45,514 nt of DNA from Lachnospiraceae bacterium (GTDB lineage: Bacteria; Bacillota; Clostridia; Lachnospirales; Lachnospiraceae): positions 3,659 through 49,172 of the forward strand of contig JAIDPF010000051.1 in NCBI GenBank assembly GCA_029062895.1. The letters are read 5' to 3'. The notes beneath the pieces are model-generated. The model worked only from the letters and a program-made list of their open reading frames with translations, did no database searches and was not told where the DNA came from. Every line of letters starts with the position of its first letter. Positions within the stretch are counted from its first letter, which is position 1. Of this stretch, positions 17,791 through 32,797 are shown one piece after another. A program made the translations under genes and the position numbers.

Positions 17791-17823
17791 GGAAGTGCTG
17801 ATTAAATCACCGTTTCCCTAATG
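17789..17823. repeat. dispersed short palindrome
   Basis: AAGGAAGTGCTGATT and AATCACCGTTTCCCTAATG form an imperfect palindrome between the GntR and ATPase genes. Related sequences lie at 6975-7004 and 8458-8480. Confidence 0.45.
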
Positions 17824-17860
17824 TTATGGCAAAAATATTTCAGAAAGGAAAGATAAGCAA

Positions 17861-18790
17861 ATGTTAGAGATCAAAAACTTACATAAAGGCTACAATAATC
17901 GACCGGTTATCCATGGTATTGATATATGCATTCATCAGGGCGAGATCCATGGTTTGATTGGTTCCAACGGAGCCGGCAAAACCACATTGCTGAAATGCGT
18001 TACAGGAATCTATAAACCTGCGCAGGGAACAATACTCTATGATGAAAAGGATATCTATGATAATCCGGAAGTGAAAGCCAAAGTGGCGTATGTTTCAGAG
18101 CAGCTTGATTATATCAATATCTATTCTGTGGCAGGAATGGCATCATACTATCAGAACTTCTACGACACATTTTCCAGAGAGAAATTTGATGATCTGGTGA
18201 AATGTTTTGATATCAATCCCAAAAAGAACATCGGCACGTTGTCCAAGGGGCAAAGAGCAAAATTGAATTTTTCTTTGGCGATTGCACAGCAGCCAAAGTA
18301 TCTGATCATGGATGAACCTGAGAGCGGTATGGATGCGGAGGGCAAAGCGATGTTCCGCGATATTCTGATTGAAGAAGTAGATAAAGAACAGATCGGAGTG
18401 CTTTTTTCCTGTCATGATCTTGCGGATGTAGAGCGCATGTGCGACAGTGTGACCATGATGGAGGTGGGAGAGGTTTTTGCGCAAAAATCCGTGGATGAGT
18501 TTATGGAAAGTGTCCAGAAATGGAAGGGCATTCTGCCACAGAAGCCAACGGATAAAACACTGTTTGACATGACTGTCCATGCGGCATCCAAGATAGGAGA
18601 TTTATCAGAATTTTACACCGTGGGAAAGCGGGAAGATAACGAATACCTATTGAAGAAGCTGGGCATCGAAGATTATTCCAGGCAGCAGATTACACTGGAG
18701 GAGATTTACATCCTTTTAAAGAAAAGATATCTGCAGAGAAAAGGAAGGACGAATGACATCCCAAAAGAAGGAGGACAGAAGAATGAGTGA
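17861..18790 (+). CDS. ABC transporter ATP-binding protein
   Basis: 309 residues: Walker A GSNGAGKTT (34-42), a Q-loop region around SEQLDY, a signature LSKGQ (127-131, with Lys for the usual Gly/Ser, as is common in this group) and Walker B YLIMDEP (147-153). The C-terminal 90 residues are an accessory domain. It follows the YtrA-type regulator, and its end overlaps the permease start by 8 nt. It would energise export or a resistance/sensing function with the six-helix permease. The substrate is unknown. Confidence 0.92.
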   Translation: MLEIKNLHKGYNNRPVIHGIDICIHQGEIHGLIGSNGAGKTTLLKCVTGIYKPAQGTILYDEKDIYDNPEVKAKVAYVSEQLDYINIYSVAGMASYYQNFYDTFSREKFDDLVKCFDINPKKNIGTLSKGQRAKLNFSLAIAQQPKYLIMDEPESGMDAEGKAMFRDILIEEVDKEQIGVLFSCHDLADVERMCDSVTMMEVGEVFAQKSVDEFMESVQKWKGILPQKPTDKTLFDMTVHAASKIGDLSEFYTVGKREDNEYLLKKLGIEDYSRQQITLEEIYILLKKRYLQRKGRTNDIPKEGGQKNE

Positions 18791-19709
18791 TATAAAAAAA
18801 TTATTCAAAAGAGACCGCTTTTACTGGGGAATCATAACAGTGATCATGGCAATAGTCATAATTTATATGTTGACGAATGTATCAGGATTGTATCATCATA
18901 AATTCTTTCATCTGGAGGATTACGCAGAACGTGTACAATGGATGCGTTTATTTTGTGATAACCATCCAGAGCTGATGTGTGATTTTTGGAATGAATTTAC
19001 GCAGCTACGCTATCAAGACGGTATTTATTTAGATGATATTTCAAATGAGTTTTTGAAACATATGGCGTTAGTGACCGTGATTGTGATATTGATTGCGCAG
19101 GCGGTCAAATTGTTGGTACAGGAGACTCGCAACCGCGCAGAAGTACAACGCATATTTCCTGTAAAGTCACGCAATTTACTAATCTATCATTACCTAAGCG
19201 GATTGTTTTCGATAGGAATTCTTTTACTGATACAAATAGCGCTCATCCAACTGGATATACTGTATCTTGAAAAAAATATAGGCGTCATTTTTACTAATAA
19301 AGAAGATCTTTGGAGTTATGCCGGATTTACCATACTTTTATTCATGCTGCTTTATTCTCTGTTACTCACTTGCAAAAAGGTGACAAACCATGTTCCGGGA
19401 ACTATCTTTACATTGATAGTAACGGCGATCGGTTTAATTTGGGGATACTGGAATATTCTATTTTGGGGATTCTGGATATATTTTTCAATTGTCCTTTTAA
19501 TCGGTCTCTCCTACATCGCGGATCAAAAAAAGGACTATGCAAGAAATGGTTTTTATGCTTTTCAGATCGCGCATTGGATAGTGATGGGTATTGTATTTGC
19601 AGAAATATATTTCCTGTCCCGTGGCATACGTTCCATTCCTATAGCGATTGCAACCTCCGCGCTGATTACCACCGGCGTACACTTTATTGCGAGACCGAAA
19701 AAGATATAA
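18783..19709 (+). CDS. ABC transporter permease
   Basis: 308 residues with about six to seven hydrophobic helices and a Lys/Arg-rich N-terminus (KKLFKRDRFYWG). GGAGG precedes ATG 18783, which overlaps the ATPase stop (ATGAGTGA). A loop of about 60 residues after the first helix carries HLEDYAERVQW and DFWNEFTQL and may lie outside. The context matches YtrA-type operons, where regulator, ATPase and a two-domain or single-domain permease are co-transcribed. It has no family motif I recognise beyond topology. Confidence 0.82.
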   Translation: MSDIKKLFKRDRFYWGIITVIMAIVIIYMLTNVSGLYHHKFFHLEDYAERVQWMRLFCDNHPELMCDFWNEFTQLRYQDGIYLDDISNEFLKHMALVTVIVILIAQAVKLLVQETRNRAEVQRIFPVKSRNLLIYHYLSGLFSIGILLLIQIALIQLDILYLEKNIGVIFTNKEDLWSYAGFTILLFMLLYSLLLTCKKVTNHVPGTIFTLIVTAIGLIWGYWNILFWGFWIYFSIVLLIGLSYIADQKKDYARNGFYAFQIAHWIVMGIVFAEIYFLSRGIRSIPIAIATSALITTGVHFIARPKKI

Positions 19710-19715
19710 AAGAAG

Positions 19716-19756
19716 GGGGCTGATTTATGATTACAAATATCAAATCAGCCCCAATA
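19716..19756. terminator. bidirectional terminator between convergent genes
   Basis: GGGGCTGATTT / AAATCAGCCCC stem (arms at 19716-19726 and 19742-19752). T-rich tracts lie on both sides (TTCTTTT on the minus strand). Confidence 0.65.
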
Positions 19757-19803
19757 ATTATTAATCTCTAACATATAATCTTACAAATTTCTTATTCTTG
19801 TTA

Positions 19804-22530
19804 TCAAACCAGCTTTTCCAGCATCCCTATCAACTTTTCCTTTTCACCACTGCCATTTGTCCAAAATCTCAATAACGGAATTTCATACAACTCCAAAATG
19901 TGATTCTTCAACAGATCTCTCGAAGCCTGTACCGTATCTTCTTTGTGATATTCGTATCCGTCAACTTCAATCGCCAACACAGGCTTTTTGCCAATTCTGT
20001 TAAATATCAGAAAATCCAAATGTGTGGCCGGATTCATTGCATACTGACATTCCCGTTCACTTAATAATTCTGTATTCTTAATCAGCATATTCAACGGAAA
20101 ATGACTAACGACATCCAATCTTGAATACTTATCATCAGCAAGAATTTCGTCTATTAATGCATACATTAGATTTTCCGAATCATATTCTGATACCTTTTTA
20201 TGTTTCTGCAGGTATGTGATTCTTCCCTCAGTATACTGCTTGTATAGGTAATCAAAAATTGAGTATGTCTTGCTTTCGACAACCTCAAAATTATTATATT
20301 GGATATAATCTATTAAATCTGTTATATTATGTTCTTTTTCCTGTTCATTTCCTGTTACAACTAATATCAATTTCTTTTTTGCTCTTGATACGGCAACGTT
20401 GATCAAGTATGGATCATCTGCAAAATCTGATATTTCATCATCCACTGTGGATATGATAATATTCTCTTTTTCCTTGCCCTGAAATTGATGTACTGTTGCA
20501 GTTTCAATACCGCTAATCTCCTTGTTCAAAGCCTTTACTTGATTTTTATATGGCGCAATAATTCCTGTGTCCTCTGAATTCAAACCATATTTAGGTATGA
20601 TTTCATTTTTAATTACATCTATTTGACGCTGACTATAATGATTCCGCGCATGATTGCCTGCTACTGTTTTAATCACAGATAAAACATCTTCTTCCCCCTT
20701 ATCCGTTGTCATTATAATCAACTCTCCACGGTAAAATTTCTGGTTGCAAAAATTGATTATCTTAGGATGACATCTATAATGTTCTCGCAACAAGGTTTTC
20801 TTTACATCTGGCATAACATCCAGAATCGATTGTAAAAAACTTTTCGTATACTGATATCCTTCATTAACATGAAAACTGTCAAATATTGCTTTTGCCTTCG
20901 CCTTGATATCATCCGTAACGACATTAGGAAGCTGCTTGGTATCTCCTACTATAACAACATTTCTTGCACAGGAAAGCGCCAGCGCTCCGGTTGCAATATC
21001 CACCTGTGACGCCTCATCCATGATAAGGTAATCATATACCACGTTTGAATTCAAGCTGTTTCTTGACGAAAATGTTGTACTTAATATCACCGGATATTCC
21101 GCCAAAACTTTATAGGGTTCTTTCCAAAAATGATCTTCATTAAATATTTTACGGCTGTCGTTAACTTCATATTTTCTTGCCAGTTTGTCCTTTAATACCA
21201 CCATTGACTGACTACACAAATCCTCAAGCAGATCCTGATTAACAGTATTCAAATATCTTTCAATTTCTTCAATTTCCGCAGACAGCTCCGCTTGCTTTGC
21301 ACGATAATACATAGCCTGAAGCGTAGTAATGATTCTTGTCATATCTTGTTTGTAAAAATCCCAATCTGTGATACCATATTTGAATAAGGCTTTTATCTTA
21401 AACGGAACGCTGATTGTTTTCTTCTTTTCCAAAATCAACTGAAATTCCTGCCACAGCATCATCCAATGCTTTGATGAAAGTTTTTTCTTAAACTTTATAC
21501 TTACATTATCAACATCCTTTTTCTCAGCATATTGATCAAAATATTCTTTTTCTGTACTCAACTGAGAATATTCTTGTCTTAAATATGCCAATCTCTCCTG
21601 TTTATCAAAAACCATTTTTAATTGTCTGGATTGCTCTAATATTTTATTCTGTAATACATCCGGATTTTCTTCCGTCTTCCACAACGAAAAATCAGGATAA
21701 TTCCTGTCCTGATGTTCAACAAATAATCTCTTATTTTCAAAACTACCTAATGTCGCAGCTATAAAGCCTAAATTATATTTTGACGAGGATAATTTCTCAT
21801 ACACATTTTCCGTAGCCGAATTATTATTAGAAACCACCTGAACGGTTTTTCCCTGCATTAGTATATTGGCAATAATATTTAATATGGTTTGTGTCTTACC
21901 CGTTCCGGGCGGTCCCTGAATAACACTAATCTGATTTTCCATGGCGTTTTTTACAGCTTTGTACTGGCTATTATTACATCCAAAGGGGAAAATCGGTATA
22001 TACTCATGCCTCATTTTAGCAGTCTTTAATTCAGACGGATTTAAATACTTTGCTAACGCAACATCATTACCTATAAAAGTTATTTTTTCAAAACTTTTCG
22101 TCAATAACTTTTCGCCGGTTTCCTCATTCTTAATATTACTTAACCCTGCAATCTTCTTTATGTAATCAAATACATTTGCACATTGACTTTGATTCAGACA
22201 TGACTCAATAATATTTAATTCGCTCTGTCGATAATCTCTTTCACTGCCATTACCAAAACAAATATGCCAGTAAAACTCATATGCTCTTCCAAATATATAT
22301 ATTTCTTTTATATCAAAAAACTCTTTTCCTTCTCTACTAATACGATACATGTTGGGATTTAAAACTATTGGATCAGTCAATTTTTTTACATTCGAATACA
22401 AATATGAGTACGTTTTTCCATTATTAAATTTTACATCCCATTTCTTGGTATCACTATTATAACGGCATGACATGATTTCCGATGTCTTTATTTCGCCCTT
22501 AATAATGATCATATATTTTCTTGTATTCAT
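19804..22530 (-). CDS. SF1 (Upf1-like) helicase with C-terminal nuclease-like domain
   Basis: 908 residues. The N-terminal 60 residues contain MSCRYNSDTKKWDVKF..GKTYSYLY, which recalls a small KTSC-like fold. Helicase motifs: Walker A GPPGTGKT (206-213), motif II LIMDEASQ (about 501), VGDTKQLP (about 524), HYRCHP, VHQFQGKE and NVAVSRAKKKL. About 260 residues of charged insertion lie between motifs I and II. The end (about 838-905) has DFLIFN..LAIEVDGYEYH, a Vsr/DUF2726-like PD-(D/E)XK arrangement. It is strongly AT-rich, a single gene between terminators, with a possible -10 TATAAT at 22573-22578. Similar architectures are phage-defence genes. The start is uncertain, with ATG 22512 as an alternative. 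Confidence 0.85.
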   Translation of the reverse strand: MNTRKYMIIIKGEIKTSEIMSCRYNSDTKKWDVKFNNGKTYSYLYSNVKKLTDPIVLNPNMYRISREGKEFFDIKEIYIFGRAYEFYWHICFGNGSERDYRQSELNIIESCLNQSQCANVFDYIKKIAGLSNIKNEETGEKLLTKSFEKITFIGNDVALAKYLNPSELKTAKMRHEYIPIFPFGCNNSQYKAVKNAMENQISVIQGPPGTGKTQTILNIIANILMQGKTVQVVSNNNSATENVYEKLSSSKYNLGFIAATLGSFENKRLFVEHQDRNYPDFSLWKTEENPDVLQNKILEQSRQLKMVFDKQERLAYLRQEYSQLSTEKEYFDQYAEKKDVDNVSIKFKKKLSSKHWMMLWQEFQLILEKKKTISVPFKIKALFKYGITDWDFYKQDMTRIITTLQAMYYRAKQAELSAEIEEIERYLNTVNQDLLEDLCSQSMVVLKDKLARKYEVNDSRKIFNEDHFWKEPYKVLAEYPVILSTTFSSRNSLNSNVVYDYLIMDEASQVDIATGALALSCARNVVIVGDTKQLPNVVTDDIKAKAKAIFDSFHVNEGYQYTKSFLQSILDVMPDVKKTLLREHYRCHPKIINFCNQKFYRGELIIMTTDKGEEDVLSVIKTVAGNHARNHYSQRQIDVIKNEIIPKYGLNSEDTGIIAPYKNQVKALNKEISGIETATVHQFQGKEKENIIISTVDDEISDFADDPYLINVAVSRAKKKLILVVTGNEQEKEHNITDLIDYIQYNNFEVVESKTYSIFDYLYKQYTEGRITYLQKHKKVSEYDSENLMYALIDEILADDKYSRLDVVSHFPLNMLIKNTELLSERECQYAMNPATHLDFLIFNRIGKKPVLAIEVDGYEYHKEDTVQASRDLLKNHILELYEIPLLRFWTNGSGEKEKLIGMLEKLV

Positions 22531-22638
22531 TGCTTGTTATCTCTTTACTCCAAATTTTTTAATTTGTAATGCATTATACATGTTTACAATATAACATAAT
22601 ATAAACCTTTTCGACACTTTCTGCAATTCTATTTCCAT

Positions 22639-22663
22639 AAAAAATCCGATTACAGACAATCGG
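22639..22663 (-). terminator. hairpin with T-run on the minus strand, upstream of the helicase gene
   Basis: CCGATT / AATCGG (22646-22651 and 22658-22663, 6-nt loop) followed on the minus strand by TTTTTT (22644-22639). No minus-strand gene is visible between this hairpin and the divergent gene at 22785, so it may insulate the helicase gene, attenuate its transcript or end a short RNA. Confidence 0.5.
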
Positions 22664-22718
22664 TTCCTTATTTTATGTTCACACTGCTCCTCCGACAGAA
22701 TAACTATACTGCCCGGTT

Positions 22719-22745
22719 ACCGTTTTTCATTCGTTTCATATAATA
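22719..22745 (+). promoter_or_regulatory. candidate SigK-type (mother-cell) sporulation promoter
   Basis: AC at 22719-22720, a 16-nt spacer and CATATAATA (22737-22745), which fits the SigK -10 CATAnnnTA. It also resembles a SigE -10. A normal -35 for the overlapping TATAAT is missing. The product is spore-like. Confidence 0.4.
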
Positions 22746-22784
22746 TGATAACAGAAAAACATCCTACGAGGAGAATTAAAACCT

Positions 22785-24602
22785 ATGGCAATCGGCTATT
22801 TAAGTATACAGGCACGGACAGCCAATGATGCCGTACCCCTTGAAGGCGTATCGGTTAAGGTCTTGGACGATGAGGGAAATACAATCTATACGTTGACCAC
22901 CGATGAAAACGGTGAAACACAGACAGTCCCATTAGAAACCATTGATAAAAGCTTTTCCCAGAATCCTTATTATTCCGGAACTCCATATAATAACTATAAT
23001 GTATTGGCACAGGCAGCGGGATTTAACAACCTTTATATTTCCAATATTCCTATTTTTGACGGTGAAACAGCAACGCTCCCGCTGACTTTGATCCCCATGC
23101 AGGAATTGCAGCGCAGTCCGGCGCAGGCTGAAATCAATATCGGCGGACCGGCTATTTCCATGCAGGTCCGAAGGAATCAGGAAGGCTCTGTAGCATCGCC
23201 ATACGTGCTGCGTCAGGTTGTAATCCCCAATCCCATTACGGTACATCTTGGTGCGCCGAGTGCATCCGCTTCCAATGTACAGGTCTCATTTCCTGATTAT
23301 GTGAAAAATGTTGCAAGCAGTGAAATATACCCAACCTGGCCTGAGGCTGCCCTGACCGCCAACATCTACGCCATCATTACCTTTGCCCTCAACCGCGTTT
23401 ATACGGAATGGTACAGAAGCCGCGGCTACAGCTTTGATATTACGAACAATACCGCCTATGACCAATATTTTGTCTACGGGCGGCCAATTTATGACTCCAT
23501 CAGCCGGATCGTTGATCAGATCTTTAATGAATATGTCCGCAGGCAGGGACAAAACGCTCCCTACTTTACCTCTTTCTGCAACGGAACCACTTCCACCTGC
23601 AACGGGTTGTCGCAGTGGGGAACGGTTACACTTGCAGACCGCGGACTGACACCGATACAGATCCTCCGCTCCTACTATCCGGACGATATCGAAATCGCAG
23701 AAACCAACATCGTGACAGGCGTTCTTTCCTCCTATCCCGGAAGCCCCTTGAAAACAGGCAGTACCGGATTGAACGTACAGACCGTACAGACCTATTTAAA
23801 CCGTATCAGGAAAAACTATCCCGCGATCCCCGCCATCACGGACGAGACCGGGACTTTTGGCAACAGTACCAAAAATGCCGTGGCAAAATTCCAGAGTATT
23901 TTCGGGCTCCAATCCGACGGCATCGTGGGAAAATCCACATGGTATAAGCTTTCAAGCCTGTATTCCTCTGTGACAAGACTTGCCGAATTAGACAGCGAAG
24001 GAGATACGCTTGGCATAGGAACGGTTCCCCCATCCTCCATCCTGCGTCAGGGGTCAAGAGGGCAGGATGTCATTACCCTGCAATATCTGTTAAACGTGAT
24101 TTCCGAGTATTATCCCGGCATTACCGCGCCGACGCAGGACGGCATCTTCGGCAGCGGAACACGTCAGGCTGTCATAGACTTTCAGGAAACTATGCAGCTT
24201 TCTCCTGACGGCACAGTGGGACCTCTTACATGGCAGGCTCTTTATAAGGTATATCAGGGAATCGTGCAGAATATCCCCCCGACAGCACCCGGGACGGACA
24301 CATTTGAATATGTGGTAAAGGCAGGCGACAGCCTGTGGCTGATTGCCAGAAGATACAACACGACGGTTGACACCATCAAAAATATAAACGGATTAACAAG
24401 CAACATGATCACTACCGGACAGATTTTAAAAATACCGGCAGGGCAGAACGCCCCTTATATCGAATATACCGTACAGTCCGGAGATAGCCTCTGGCTGATT
24501 GCCAGAAAATACGGTACGACCGTTGACGCCATCAAAAATTTAAACGGACTGACCAGCGATCGGCTGAACATCGGGCAGGTACTGCGTATCCCCGAAGTCT
24601 GA
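22785..24602 (+). CDS. SpoIID-domain protein with two PG-binding and two LysM domains
   Basis: 605 residues. Order: a carboxypeptidase-regulatory-like beta domain (about 8-75), a linker, a SpoIID-like domain (about 165-305; YVKNVASSEI and GLSQWGTVTLADRGLTPIQI), two PG_binding_1 domains (about 325-390 and 420-490) and two LysM domains (508-550 and 558-603; both have AGDSLWLIAR or SGDSLWLIAR). SpoIID proteins cut denuded glycan strands during engulfment. There is no signal peptide, which fits a mother-cell-made spore coat/cortex protein. GGAG precedes ATG 22785. The LysM repeats are nearly identical, indicating recent duplication. Confidence 0.88.
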   Translation: MAIGYLSIQARTANDAVPLEGVSVKVLDDEGNTIYTLTTDENGETQTVPLETIDKSFSQNPYYSGTPYNNYNVLAQAAGFNNLYISNIPIFDGETATLPLTLIPMQELQRSPAQAEINIGGPAISMQVRRNQEGSVASPYVLRQVVIPNPITVHLGAPSASASNVQVSFPDYVKNVASSEIYPTWPEAALTANIYAIITFALNRVYTEWYRSRGYSFDITNNTAYDQYFVYGRPIYDSISRIVDQIFNEYVRRQGQNAPYFTSFCNGTTSTCNGLSQWGTVTLADRGLTPIQILRSYYPDDIEIAETNIVTGVLSSYPGSPLKTGSTGLNVQTVQTYLNRIRKNYPAIPAITDETGTFGNSTKNAVAKFQSIFGLQSDGIVGKSTWYKLSSLYSSVTRLAELDSEGDTLGIGTVPPSSILRQGSRGQDVITLQYLLNVISEYYPGITAPTQDGIFGSGTRQAVIDFQETMQLSPDGTVGPLTWQALYKVYQGIVQNIPPTAPGTDTFEYVVKAGDSLWLIARRYNTTVDTIKNINGLTSNMITTGQILKIPAGQNAPYIEYTVQSGDSLWLIARKYGTTVDAIKNLNGLTSDRLNIGQVLRIPEV

Positions 24603-24630
24603 CGGAGTCTGACCATATTTTAAAGGGGAG

Positions 24631-29777: not shown

Positions 29778-32057
29778 TTATGAAATTTCCTTTTTATTTT
29801 CGGATAGCCCGCCTGACTCCAGCCTCTCCCGAAGCATGGTATTTCTCTTTGTAACAGTCACGTTTTGCACCGCATAGCTAAGCGCTTTCTTTGTTCCTAC
29901 TATGACCAGCGCCTTTTTCGCCCTCGTGATCCCCGTATAGATCAGATTACGCTGCAGCATCACATAGTGGTTCATCAATACAGGCATAACGACGATTGGA
30001 TATTCCGATCCCTGCGCCTTATGAATGGTGGTCGCATAGGCATGAACCAGCTCATCCAGTTCCGTTACGTCATATACAATGCTCCTGCCGTCAAAATCAA
30101 CAGTAAGGGTTCTGTCCGTCTCATTTACAGACTCTATGACTCCGATATCTCCGTTAAAAACTTCCTTATCGTAATTATTCCTGACCTGCATTACCCTGTC
30201 ATCCGTCCGAAACGCATATCCGCTCCTGCGCAGACATTCCTTGGGCAGCGTTACTTTCCCCCTGCCCCGTATAAAGATCTCCTGCTCCGCCGGATTCAGT
30301 GCCTCCTGCAGGGACAAATTCAGATTCGTCGCCCCTACCACGCCTCTCTGCATAGGGGTAAGCACCTGTATCCGGTGCGGCTCTATCTGGTAATATTTCG
30401 GCAGTTTTGTCTGCACAAGCTTAACAATCTGTGAAACTACAGCATCGGGGTCCTCATTTTCCAGAAAAAAGAAGTCGGACGATTTACCGTTACTGATATC
30501 CGGCATCTTACCCTCATTAATACGATGCGCATTCATGATGATGCGGCTTGTCTGTGCCTGACGGAAGATCCTTGTAAGCCGCACCACAGGGAAAGCGCCC
30601 GAATCAATAATATCCCGCAGCACATTCCCCGCCCCTACGGAAGGAAGCTGGTCGATATCCCCCACCATGATCAGGCGCATTGTGGGTGGTATCGCTTTCA
30701 ACAGTGAGTTCATCAGGATAATGTCAATCATGGAACACTCGTCGACAATCAGCACATCCCCTTCCAGCGGATTCTCTTCATTCTTCTGATACCCTTCCGG
30801 CGGCTTACATTCCAGCAGCCTGTGAATGGTCTTGGCTTCCAGCCCCGTTGCCTCTGTCATCCTTTTAGCAGCCCTTCCGGTAGGCGCTGCAAGCAGTATC
30901 CGCAGACCATAGGCACGGTAAGCGGCAATGATCCCATGGGTCGTGGTCGTTTTCCCCGTCCCCGGGCCACCCGTCAGTACCATGACCTTCGCTGTTGCCG
31001 CCTGACGGATGGCATCCGCCTGGATCTCATCGTATTCCATACCTGTCTTGTCCTGAATTGCGGTAATATCAACCGACAGATTATCACTTCCGGCATGCTT
31101 ACGGGCCTCCGTCAGCTTGGCATAAAGACTGTCCCCCGCAGGAGACGCCGCCAGCTTTTTCAACTTTCCCGCAACACCGATCTCCGCAAAATAAAAAGGC
31201 GGCAGATAAATTGCCTGCACCGGATTGCCATCTTCACACATTCTGACAATGTTCTTCTCAAGGATAAGCTCCTTATTCCGAAGCATATCGTCCATCGTCA
31301 TGATCACTGTCTCCGGCGATGCCTCCAATAGTTCCGCCGCTTTATCAATAAGCTGCTGCTTCTCCGCATACACATGCCCCTCATCGGAAAGTTCCGAAAG
31401 GGTATACATCAGTCCGCTCCGCAGCCGGACATAAGACTCTCTGCTAAATCCCAGCTTCATTGCAATCTGATCGGCAGTTCTGAAACCAATCCCCCAGATA
31501 TCATCCGCCAGCTTATAAGGATTTTCTTTCATCACTGCGATGCTGTCATTGTCGTATTGCTTATATATTTTGGCAGCATAAGAAGCAGATACCTGATGCT
31601 CCTGCAGAAACAGCATGATATTCTTTACTTCTTTCTGCCTCGCCCATGACTCGGCAATCATCCTGACGCGCTTTTGTCCGATTCCATCAATCTCGATCAG
31701 GCGTTCCACCTGTTCCTCTATGACATGAAACGTATCCTCTCCGTATTGTTGCACAATCTTTTTTGCATACTTCGGACCCACGCCCTTGATCAGACCGGAG
31801 CCAAGATATTTCTCCATTCCGTAGACTGTTGCGGGCAGCGTTTCCTCCCATTTTTCGGCAATGAACTGCCTGCCGTACTTAGCGTCCACTTTCCAGCTGC
31901 CTTCTGCAATCAGTACAGAACCTACATTAGCATCGATCATATTGCCGATGACCGGAACCGGCTCACTATAACCCTTCAGCCGGCACTTAAGAACCGAATA
32001 TCCGTTTTCCGGATTCTGATATGTTATTCTCTCCACCACACAACGAATCTTTATCAT
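29778..32057 (-). CDS. recD2: RecD2-type ATP-dependent DNA helicase
   Basis: About 759 residues, normal for RecD2. An OB-like N-terminus (about 1-75) and helix-hairpin-helix repeats (LIEIDGIGQKR) come before the SF1B core: Walker A GGPGTGKTTT (about 361-370), APTGRAAKRM, motif II VDECSM, MVGDIDQLPSVG, LTRIFRQ, and the C-terminal ATTIHKAQGSE and YTGITRAKKAL. It unwinds DNA 5' to 3' in repair and acts without RecBC. ATG 32057 overlaps the stop of the gene before it (TGATG); a GTG one codon earlier is the alternative. It is the last gene of a four-gene run. Confidence 0.93.
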   Translation of the reverse strand: MIKIRCVVERITYQNPENGYSVLKCRLKGYSEPVPVIGNMIDANVGSVLIAEGSWKVDAKYGRQFIAEKWEETLPATVYGMEKYLGSGLIKGVGPKYAKKIVQQYGEDTFHVIEEQVERLIEIDGIGQKRVRMIAESWARQKEVKNIMLFLQEHQVSASYAAKIYKQYDNDSIAVMKENPYKLADDIWGIGFRTADQIAMKLGFSRESYVRLRSGLMYTLSELSDEGHVYAEKQQLIDKAAELLEASPETVIMTMDDMLRNKELILEKNIVRMCEDGNPVQAIYLPPFYFAEIGVAGKLKKLAASPAGDSLYAKLTEARKHAGSDNLSVDITAIQDKTGMEYDEIQADAIRQAATAKVMVLTGGPGTGKTTTTHGIIAAYRAYGLRILLAAPTGRAAKRMTEATGLEAKTIHRLLECKPPEGYQKNEENPLEGDVLIVDECSMIDIILMNSLLKAIPPTMRLIMVGDIDQLPSVGAGNVLRDIIDSGAFPVVRLTRIFRQAQTSRIIMNAHRINEGKMPDISNGKSSDFFFLENEDPDAVVSQIVKLVQTKLPKYYQIEPHRIQVLTPMQRGVVGATNLNLSLQEALNPAEQEIFIRGRGKVTLPKECLRRSGYAFRTDDRVMQVRNNYDKEVFNGDIGVIESVNETDRTLTVDFDGRSIVYDVTELDELVHAYATTIHKAQGSEYPIVVMPVLMNHYVMLQRNLIYTGITRAKKALVIVGTKKALSYAVQNVTVTKRNTMLRERLESGGLSENKKEIS

Positions 32058-32797
32058 CACTTCTTCAAAGCAGCGCTTAAGCTGTTCGGTATCCCTCTGG
32101 GTCCCCTAACCGCAAAAATACCGTATTCCTCCTTCAGTATATCAAATGTAAATCGATCCGGCTGGTAGCGCTTCTGAAGCTTCACTTTCATTAACGCATT
32201 GATCGTCAGATTCTTATCCGCATAATCATATGGTATATCCGTCTCTGTCACCTTACACCGGAACAGTATCGCCGACACCGGAGCCGCTACATACATAAAG
32301 ACCGTATCGCCCGTCTTGATTCCGCTGCCCTGCTTCCATTCAATCTCATCCGCATCGTCGAAGGCATGCAGAATGTCATAGAACTTTGGATTGGCGGGAA
32401 TCAGCCACTCCTTAGACGGACGGATTTTCTGTTTCTTCTTTGACGAAGCGGTTGCCGCAAAACTCATGTCAATCAGTTCATAAACCCTCTCCCACGCCAC
32501 GGTTCCGTCCAGCAGCACGCTGATCCAGTGAAACTTATTCATATGGTAAGCCGGCAGGATACCGTCTTCCTGAAGCAATACATCTTTAAAGAACGGATCG
32601 TCTATCTTCAGATTTATGACATCCACATCCTCCCCGGCGGGAAGCCCCAGCTTTTCTCTCCCAACTTCCATGACCAGTGCAAACCACTTATTGTTGTCGG
32701 TATGCCGGAACACGGCATTCATGTCATATTTTCTCCACGGATATTCCGGCAGTACCTTGTATTTCTTTTTTATGTAATCAAAAACAAACTCTCTCAT
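32057..32797 (-). CDS. MmcQ/YjbR-like domain fused to an EVE/PUA-like domain
   Basis: 246 residues. The first about 115 (MREFVFDYIKKKY to DLIDMSFAAT) match the MmcQ/YjbR CyaY-like DNA-binding fold (FALVMEV, VINLK, HWISVLLDG). The rest (about 135-246; GSGIKTGDTVFMYVAAP, AILFRCKV) resembles EVE/PUA-like domains that bind modified bases or RNA. GGGGAG precedes ATG 32797; ATG 32818 lies upstream but is less well placed. Translation is coupled to recD2. The joining of these domains next to a repair helicase hints at a nucleic-acid role, but this is inference. Confidence 0.75.
   Translation of the reverse strand: MREFVFDYIKKKYKVLPEYPWRKYDMNAVFRHTDNNKWFALVMEVGREKLGLPAGEDVDVINLKIDDPFFKDVLLQEDGILPAYHMNKFHWISVLLDGTVAWERVYELIDMSFAATASSKKKQKIRPSKEWLIPANPKFYDILHAFDDADEIEWKQGSGIKTGDTVFMYVAAPVSAILFRCKVTETDIPYDYADKNLTINALMKVKLQKRYQPDRFTFDILKEEYGIFAVRGPRGIPNSLSAALKK

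Follow-up and report, generated by a model that had tools for sequence, protein, structure and literature searches.

How a solitary gene for a helicase fused to a nuclease serves its host, and whether it falls into any known class of anti-phage enzyme, is the question raised by P0001, which lies in a 45,514-nucleotide stretch of Lachnospiraceae DNA analyzed here as a whole (the window). A preliminary description had presented P0001 as an AT-rich gene, alone between terminators, that encodes one 908-residue protein and might be a single-gene defense system. These basic observations were borne out. The protein is encoded by a single ORF, the GC content of the gene is 33.7% against 41.8% for the remaining window, and terminator-like stem-loops lie on either side (Table 1). 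A structured leader 5′ of the start codon was considered and rejected (z 0.74). By eye, the neighbors of P0001 in the window are ordinary-looking genes, and there is no defense island there.

Table 1. P0001, its predicted parts, and the surrounding insertion, in window positions
Feature	Position	Strand	Basis
Helicase-nuclease gene P0001	19804..22530	-	Single ORF, ATG start, 908 aa
Small β-barrel 1, KTSC-like, residues 1-52	22375..22530	-	KTSC 17.9 bits; domain model pLDDT 89.9
Small β-barrel 2, residues 55-110	22201..22368	-	Strands in models; possible tandem copy of barrel 1
Stalk-like linker, partly helical, residues 115-180	21991..22188	-	Model, confidence low in places
RecA-like domain 1, first part, residues 181-270	21721..21990	-	AAA_11; invariant residues
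Walker A GPPGTGKT, residues 206-213	21892..21915	-	Invariant in 47 sequences
Mostly helical insert, residues 271-478, lying between motifs Ia and II	21097..21720	-	Model
RecA-like domain 1, second part, residues 479-560	20851..21096	-	Motifs II (DE 505-506), III (GD 529-530)
RecA-like domain 2, residues 561-745, motifs IV-VI	20296..20850	-	AAA_12; invariant residues
DUF2726 nuclease, residues 781-908	19807..20190	-	Pfam 6.3e-13; model α/β order
Strong stem-loop at gene 3′ end, terminator-like on both strands	19715..19752		Fold z -3.4 minus, -4.1 plus
Stem-loop upstream of gene, within insertion, terminator-like on both strands	22646..22663		Fold z -2.7, -2.5
Inserted segment, 2,982 bp, P0001 its only gene	19728..22709		16 bp instead in close relative G794

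From the N to the C terminus, P0001 comprises two small β-barrels, an Upf1/Dna2-like SF1 helicase with an insert, and a DUF2726 nuclease; the full-length structure model is of moderate quality (pLDDT 71.7, pTM 0.54). Both the helicase motifs and the Upf1-like core fold are present, and Pfam AAA_11 (residues 185-538, 2.4e-26) and AAA_12 (residues 562-724, 9.9e-25) match above their cut-offs. The closest solved relatives of the helicase include both DNA and RNA kinds. The split SF1 helicase recognized earlier is thus real, but its motifs I and II are farther apart than the ∼260 residues first estimated: from the end of Walker A (residue 213) to the start of motif II (DEAS, residue 505) there are ∼290 residues, of which ∼208 form the mainly helical insert (helices in the model at residues 290-337, 397-429, and 434-454). 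The alignment comprised 47 sequences of at least 850 residues, the window protein plus 46 relatives; L013 and L016 are incomplete because their contigs end. In all 47, the helicase retains Walker A, D505-E506, Q509, G529-D530, Q533, R586, T679, H681, Q684-G685, and R716. The most variable parts are the insert, which is the least conserved region (residues 271-475; mean identity 0.47), and residues 61-180 (0.50); such variability might fit a part of the sequence devoted to recognition.

The C-terminal end, previously likened to Vsr/DUF2726 nucleases, matches DUF2726 (PF10881) at residues 784-906 with 49 bits against a cut-off of 24.7, and a DUF2726 match at E≤0.01 is found in 20/20 diverse members scanned, P0001 itself being one of them. 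E827, D839, E855, D857, G858, and Q868 are kept in 47/47 sequences, and the DFLIFN..AIEVDG stretch contains D839, E855, D857, and G858. The active-site residues, the loss of which would have spoken against a nuclease, are thus in place. The same helicase and nuclease residues are also invariant in a diverse subset made up of the window protein plus 19 relatives with 33-66% identity to it. DUF2726 is classed as a REase-fold DNase in PMC3710099.

The N terminus had been called KTSC-like. A small barrel is indeed predicted there, but the KTSC label is a hint only, as the Pfam match (PF13619, residues 17-44) falls below the curated cut-off of 25 bits. KTSC is matched in 2/20 diverse family members (E≤0.01; P0001 among the 20), and residues 1-180 match a single PDB sequence, that of a KTSC protein (E 0.26). 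It is possible that barrel 2 is a tandem copy of barrel 1: hhalign paired the two at E 0.0027, with a reported probability of only 4.6%, and gave E 0.43-0.97 for five other pairings. DUF4011 is absent among the Pfam matches listed (25 of 28, E≤1), in agreement with the earlier view that the N terminus is unlike DUF4011; a DUF4011 type was rejected accordingly. Two further related helicases are encoded in the same genome: one that also has a Vsr/DUF2726-like end but a different N terminus, WYL-like by eye (L088:7020-10061, G000:C86; 1013 aa), and one in a 1991-aa ORF with 30-31% identity in pieces (L089:1304-7279, G000:C107).

The clearest view of how P0001 came to its present position is given by the close relative G794, in which the sequences matching window positions 17820-19727 (90.6%) and 22710-24614 (94.0%) are just 16 bp apart (blastn, L118). 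The pair of genomes, G000 and G794, therefore presents a single gene present or absent by itself. In G820, the same LysM gene is preceded by a different set of genes together with 26 bp similar to the nuclease end, and in G795, the gap is occupied by genes that by eye resemble sensor kinases. Since the contents differ among these three genomes, the insertion site seems to turn over. The 26-bp stretch (L119:10620-10645), which lies beside the LysM gene, is a possible relic of a lost P0001 copy. Transposon marks were rejected, the repeat pair at both insertion ends being absent.

Other signs of transfer were mixed. The gene is lower in GC than its flanks in 51/60 loci, by a mean of 4.9 points, and in the tree, two copies from the window’s own family (L104, L106) group with copies from other families (support 99/95). 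In both G302 and G102, P0001 identity reaches 83%, compared with 58% and 72%, respectively, for a cysteine synthase encoded in the window. Over 13 genomes, the synthase is less conserved than P0001 in 2, equally conserved in 1, and more conserved in 10, and this yardstick therefore supports transfer only for G302 and G102. The result weakens one among several signs of transfer; the empty site stands. Of the 62 copies, 11 are split or truncated at places other than contig ends (L020, L024, L031, L054, L057, L058, L082, L085, L087, L103, L105), although sequencing errors may account for some of them. The window also holds a RecD2-like gene (29778-32060), with a second copy in the same genome at 42%. 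Among 16 other genomes, it is near-identical only in G820 (98%) and G344 (85%), and because of this narrow near-identity, it may also be mobile.

Relatives of P0001 are patchily spread. At E≤1e-60 and with its own genome counted, we found the protein in 1/35 genomes of its genus (its own genome only), 18/397 of its family, and 14/398 of its phylum; in the family and phylum searches, full scoring was limited to two candidates per genome, and these tallies may be low. Relatives also occur in Bacteroidota, Pseudomonadota, and Actinomycetota, with full-length ones in several phyla. In E. coli, 643/5,426 complete genomes have a near match, which covers at least 80% of the gene in 637, and all 654 places are chromosomal. 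In 6 of the 25 E. coli records listed (H18-H23; O157:H7 among them), the match crosses two annotated features and is probably a broken copy. Relatives are also carried by nine viral contigs, several of them near-duplicates of each other, and by 7 plasmid records, some of which look chromosomal by gene content or size.

A housekeeping role at one conserved locus, which the preliminary description had named as an observation that would count against defense, was rejected. No neighbor is common to the whole family among 62 distinct loci surveyed (genes within five places, from which clusters were drawn); the largest cluster, which includes an SF2 helicase, covers 8 loci, the spread is patchy, and G794 has an empty site. 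The next clusters, of 5-6 loci, come from a subgroup of near relatives whose surroundings are alike and consist of phosphatase-like, HTH-NUDIX-like, and third genes (names by eye). Within this subgroup (L005, L006, L010, L023, L028, L092), a downstream AlbA_2-like gene (by eye) is found in 6 loci and an HTH-NUDIX-like gene in others (5 loci); a partner gene is possible there. Elsewhere, L022, L086, and L098 have a NUDIX-like gene plus a large gene of the helicase cluster nearby.

Several relatives lie near phage or defense genes. An integrase adjoins the relative in L144 and L149, and a head-type phage gene lies near that in L148 (predicted viral contigs). Below NCBIfam cut-offs, we observed a type III restriction-like gene with two DEAH helicases (L080), a DRT-like reverse transcriptase (L011), and a RadD/EcoAI-like helicase (L079). 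SNF2, N-6 methylase, and TIR genes lie upstream of the relative in a Parabacteroides record (L056). In the E. coli regions inspected, the relative resides in islands adjoining IbrA/IbrB-like genes or is a fragment amid transposase remnants. In strain SC407, a set of DEAD/DEAH helicase, ATP-binding, and TerB-N genes, the make-up of which fits Shango, is 3.8 kb from the relative.

Neighbors within three genes and of at least 110 aa were scanned with PADLOC models (E≤1e-15) at 59/62 loci, the near-copies L005, L054, and L057 being left out. The Lachnospiraceae half matched 41 families over 131 genes, and the other half matched 112 families over 139/141 genes (L082:4037-8737 and L084:3302-8101 excluded for length). 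DUF3427 and NUDIX were each seen in 3/139 scanned neighbors of this second half. A control of 17 stretches from the second half’s genomes matched 55 families over 123/148 genes (25 left out for length), where families are not equivalent to genes. In each of the three scans, 25 of the families matched were listed. The control matches include UvrD (by GajB models), DinG, and mad3 models, and housekeeping-type helicases are among the control genes matched. Because control genes also match PADLOC, the totals prove no enrichment, and the argument rests on the kinds of system, which among the scanned neighbors include SngC, REase_III, type IV restriction, AbiD, and DRT. In the Lachnospiraceae half, nearly all of the families listed were matched by one gene each, and defense company is therefore thinner in the window’s own subgroup than in distant relatives. 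As to whether homologs lie in defense islands, which the preliminary description had proposed to survey, some relatives have defense genes or integrases beside them, but the window gene lies among ordinary-looking neighbors.

From the domains, conserved active sites, patchy spread, empty site, and defense-gene or prophage company of some relatives, we consider it likely that P0001 is a mobile, stand-alone helicase-nuclease that protects against phage as a single gene. The anti-phage part of this reading is drawn from the scattered relatives that sit in defense islands and prophages of distant bacteria. Neither of the observations that could have overturned the original proposal was made, and P0001 keeps its status as a candidate single-gene defense system. 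A bolder version, for which we see an even balance, is that P0001 represents a cross-phylum one-protein immune family that works without partners, in which tandem KTSC/SH3-like barrels and the insert sense a phage-specific nucleic-acid state and license a Vsr-fold nuclease fed by a 5′-3′ helicase.

Mechanistically, recognition of the substrate or restraint of the enzyme would fall to the N-terminal barrel pair and the variable insert. The Upf1/Dna2-like motor would move 5′ to 3′ on single-stranded nucleic acid, and ATP-driven translocation would deliver the DUF2726 nuclease to the strand, which would be cut. Phage replication might be stopped directly or through death of the infected cell. We judge single-stranded DNA of phage replication intermediates to be the somewhat likelier target, over RNA, because DUF2726/Vsr-type nucleases and helicase-nuclease defenses mostly act on DNA; the Upf1-like core is compatible with RNA as well.

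The leading alternative, although we think it unlikely, derives P0001 from the CoCoNuT CnuH line as an offshoot that stands alone and acts on RNA or translation complexes, with its partners lost or supplied in trans. In PMC11090510, type III-B CnuH is described as an Upf1-like helicase with a helical insert after Walker A and a Vsr fusion. By this description, it is the closest published architecture to P0001, which shares the Upf1-like SF1 helicase, the post-Walker A helical insert typical of CoCoNuT type III, and a fused Vsr-like nuclease, so that the overall layout agrees. However, the described CnuH has an N-terminal winged helix and is encoded beside McrB/McrC-type genes and CnuA, whereas P0001 is solitary, with window neighbors that by eye are other than McrB/McrC-type genes, and has two predicted β-barrels. 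McrC (PF10117) was not found in the window’s genome (97.92% complete); it was found in 8/30 genomes carrying a relative and adjoins the relative in 1 (G405).

That P0001 acts in DNA repair or recombination as a bacterial counterpart of Dna2 seems improbable to us. The P0001 helicase core resembles Dna2 (PDB ID code 5ean) in sequence and fold, and the joining of nuclease and helicase is shared. Dna2 carries its nuclease at the N terminus, and to our knowledge, Upf1 and Ighmbp2 have no nuclease; the nuclease layout of these eukaryotic proteins (PDB ID codes 5ean, 4b3f, and 2xzp) thus differs from that of P0001. The very patchy spread, the lack of a family-wide locus among the loci surveyed, the empty site in G794, the frequent decay, and the defense and prophage company of some relatives all argue against a repair role. 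That P0001 mainly serves mobile elements, in the competition or upkeep of prophages or plasmids, and not its host is highly improbable: relatives do lie beside integrases on predicted viral contigs and in the plasmid records, some of them chromosomal-looking, but all E. coli places are on chromosomes, the insertion contains no second gene, and such service overlaps with defense, as prophage cargo often excludes other phages.

How, then, does the candidate defense protein P0001 compare with known systems? Eleven PADLOC families match it, every best stretch falling within residues 185-746. ProA and Mokosh MkoA/MkoC share a homologous helicase core with P0001, the best PADLOC matches being at 2.8e-45 and 5.9e-45; the best MkoA/MkoC stretches fall within those same residues. 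No NCBIfam model reaches its cut-off; Hhe, ProA, and PLuB are far below, with best stretches in the helicase. Membership in Hhe (DUF4011-helicase-Vsr, NF042953), an anti-phage protein that likewise has an SF1 helicase in one large polypeptide, was rejected, as the match reaches 96.4 bits where the cut-off is 2000 and its best stretch (497-673) falls in the helicase; so was membership in ProA (NF058533) at 136.6 bits against 1500. In PMC3710099, MTES_1575-type giant proteins combine an SF1 helicase, Vsr, HEPN, and transglutaminase; P0001 resembles them in having an SF1 helicase and a Vsr-fold nuclease on one chain, with a weak PF18741 match (21.8 bits, below the cut-off of 38.2), and differs from this description in that HEPN, transglutaminase, and wHTH are absent among the Pfam matches listed.

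The preliminary description had suggested a separate type. P0001 does stand apart from the DUF4011 type, but it is better regarded as a variant than as wholly separate, since helicase-Vsr fusions other than the DUF4011 type are in print (PMC11090510, PMC3710099). In the literature searched, antiphage helicases with a Vsr-like nuclease came up only in the two versions of the CoCoNuT paper; DUF2726 is named in 5 papers, never in a title or abstract, and a one-protein immune family was not described under it. A fusion of this kind has precedents, but we found no description of the solitary form, the N-terminal barrels, or the cross-phylum spread. If protective, P0001 would amount to an entire helicase-nuclease immune protein at roughly half the size of the Hhe and ProA models (1797 and 1903 positions), with near matches in 643/5,426 complete E. 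coli genomes and a scattered presence in gut Clostridia, and yet outside the defense models tried. With putative sensor, motor, and cutter on one chain, it would be convenient for asking how helicase movement activates a nuclease.
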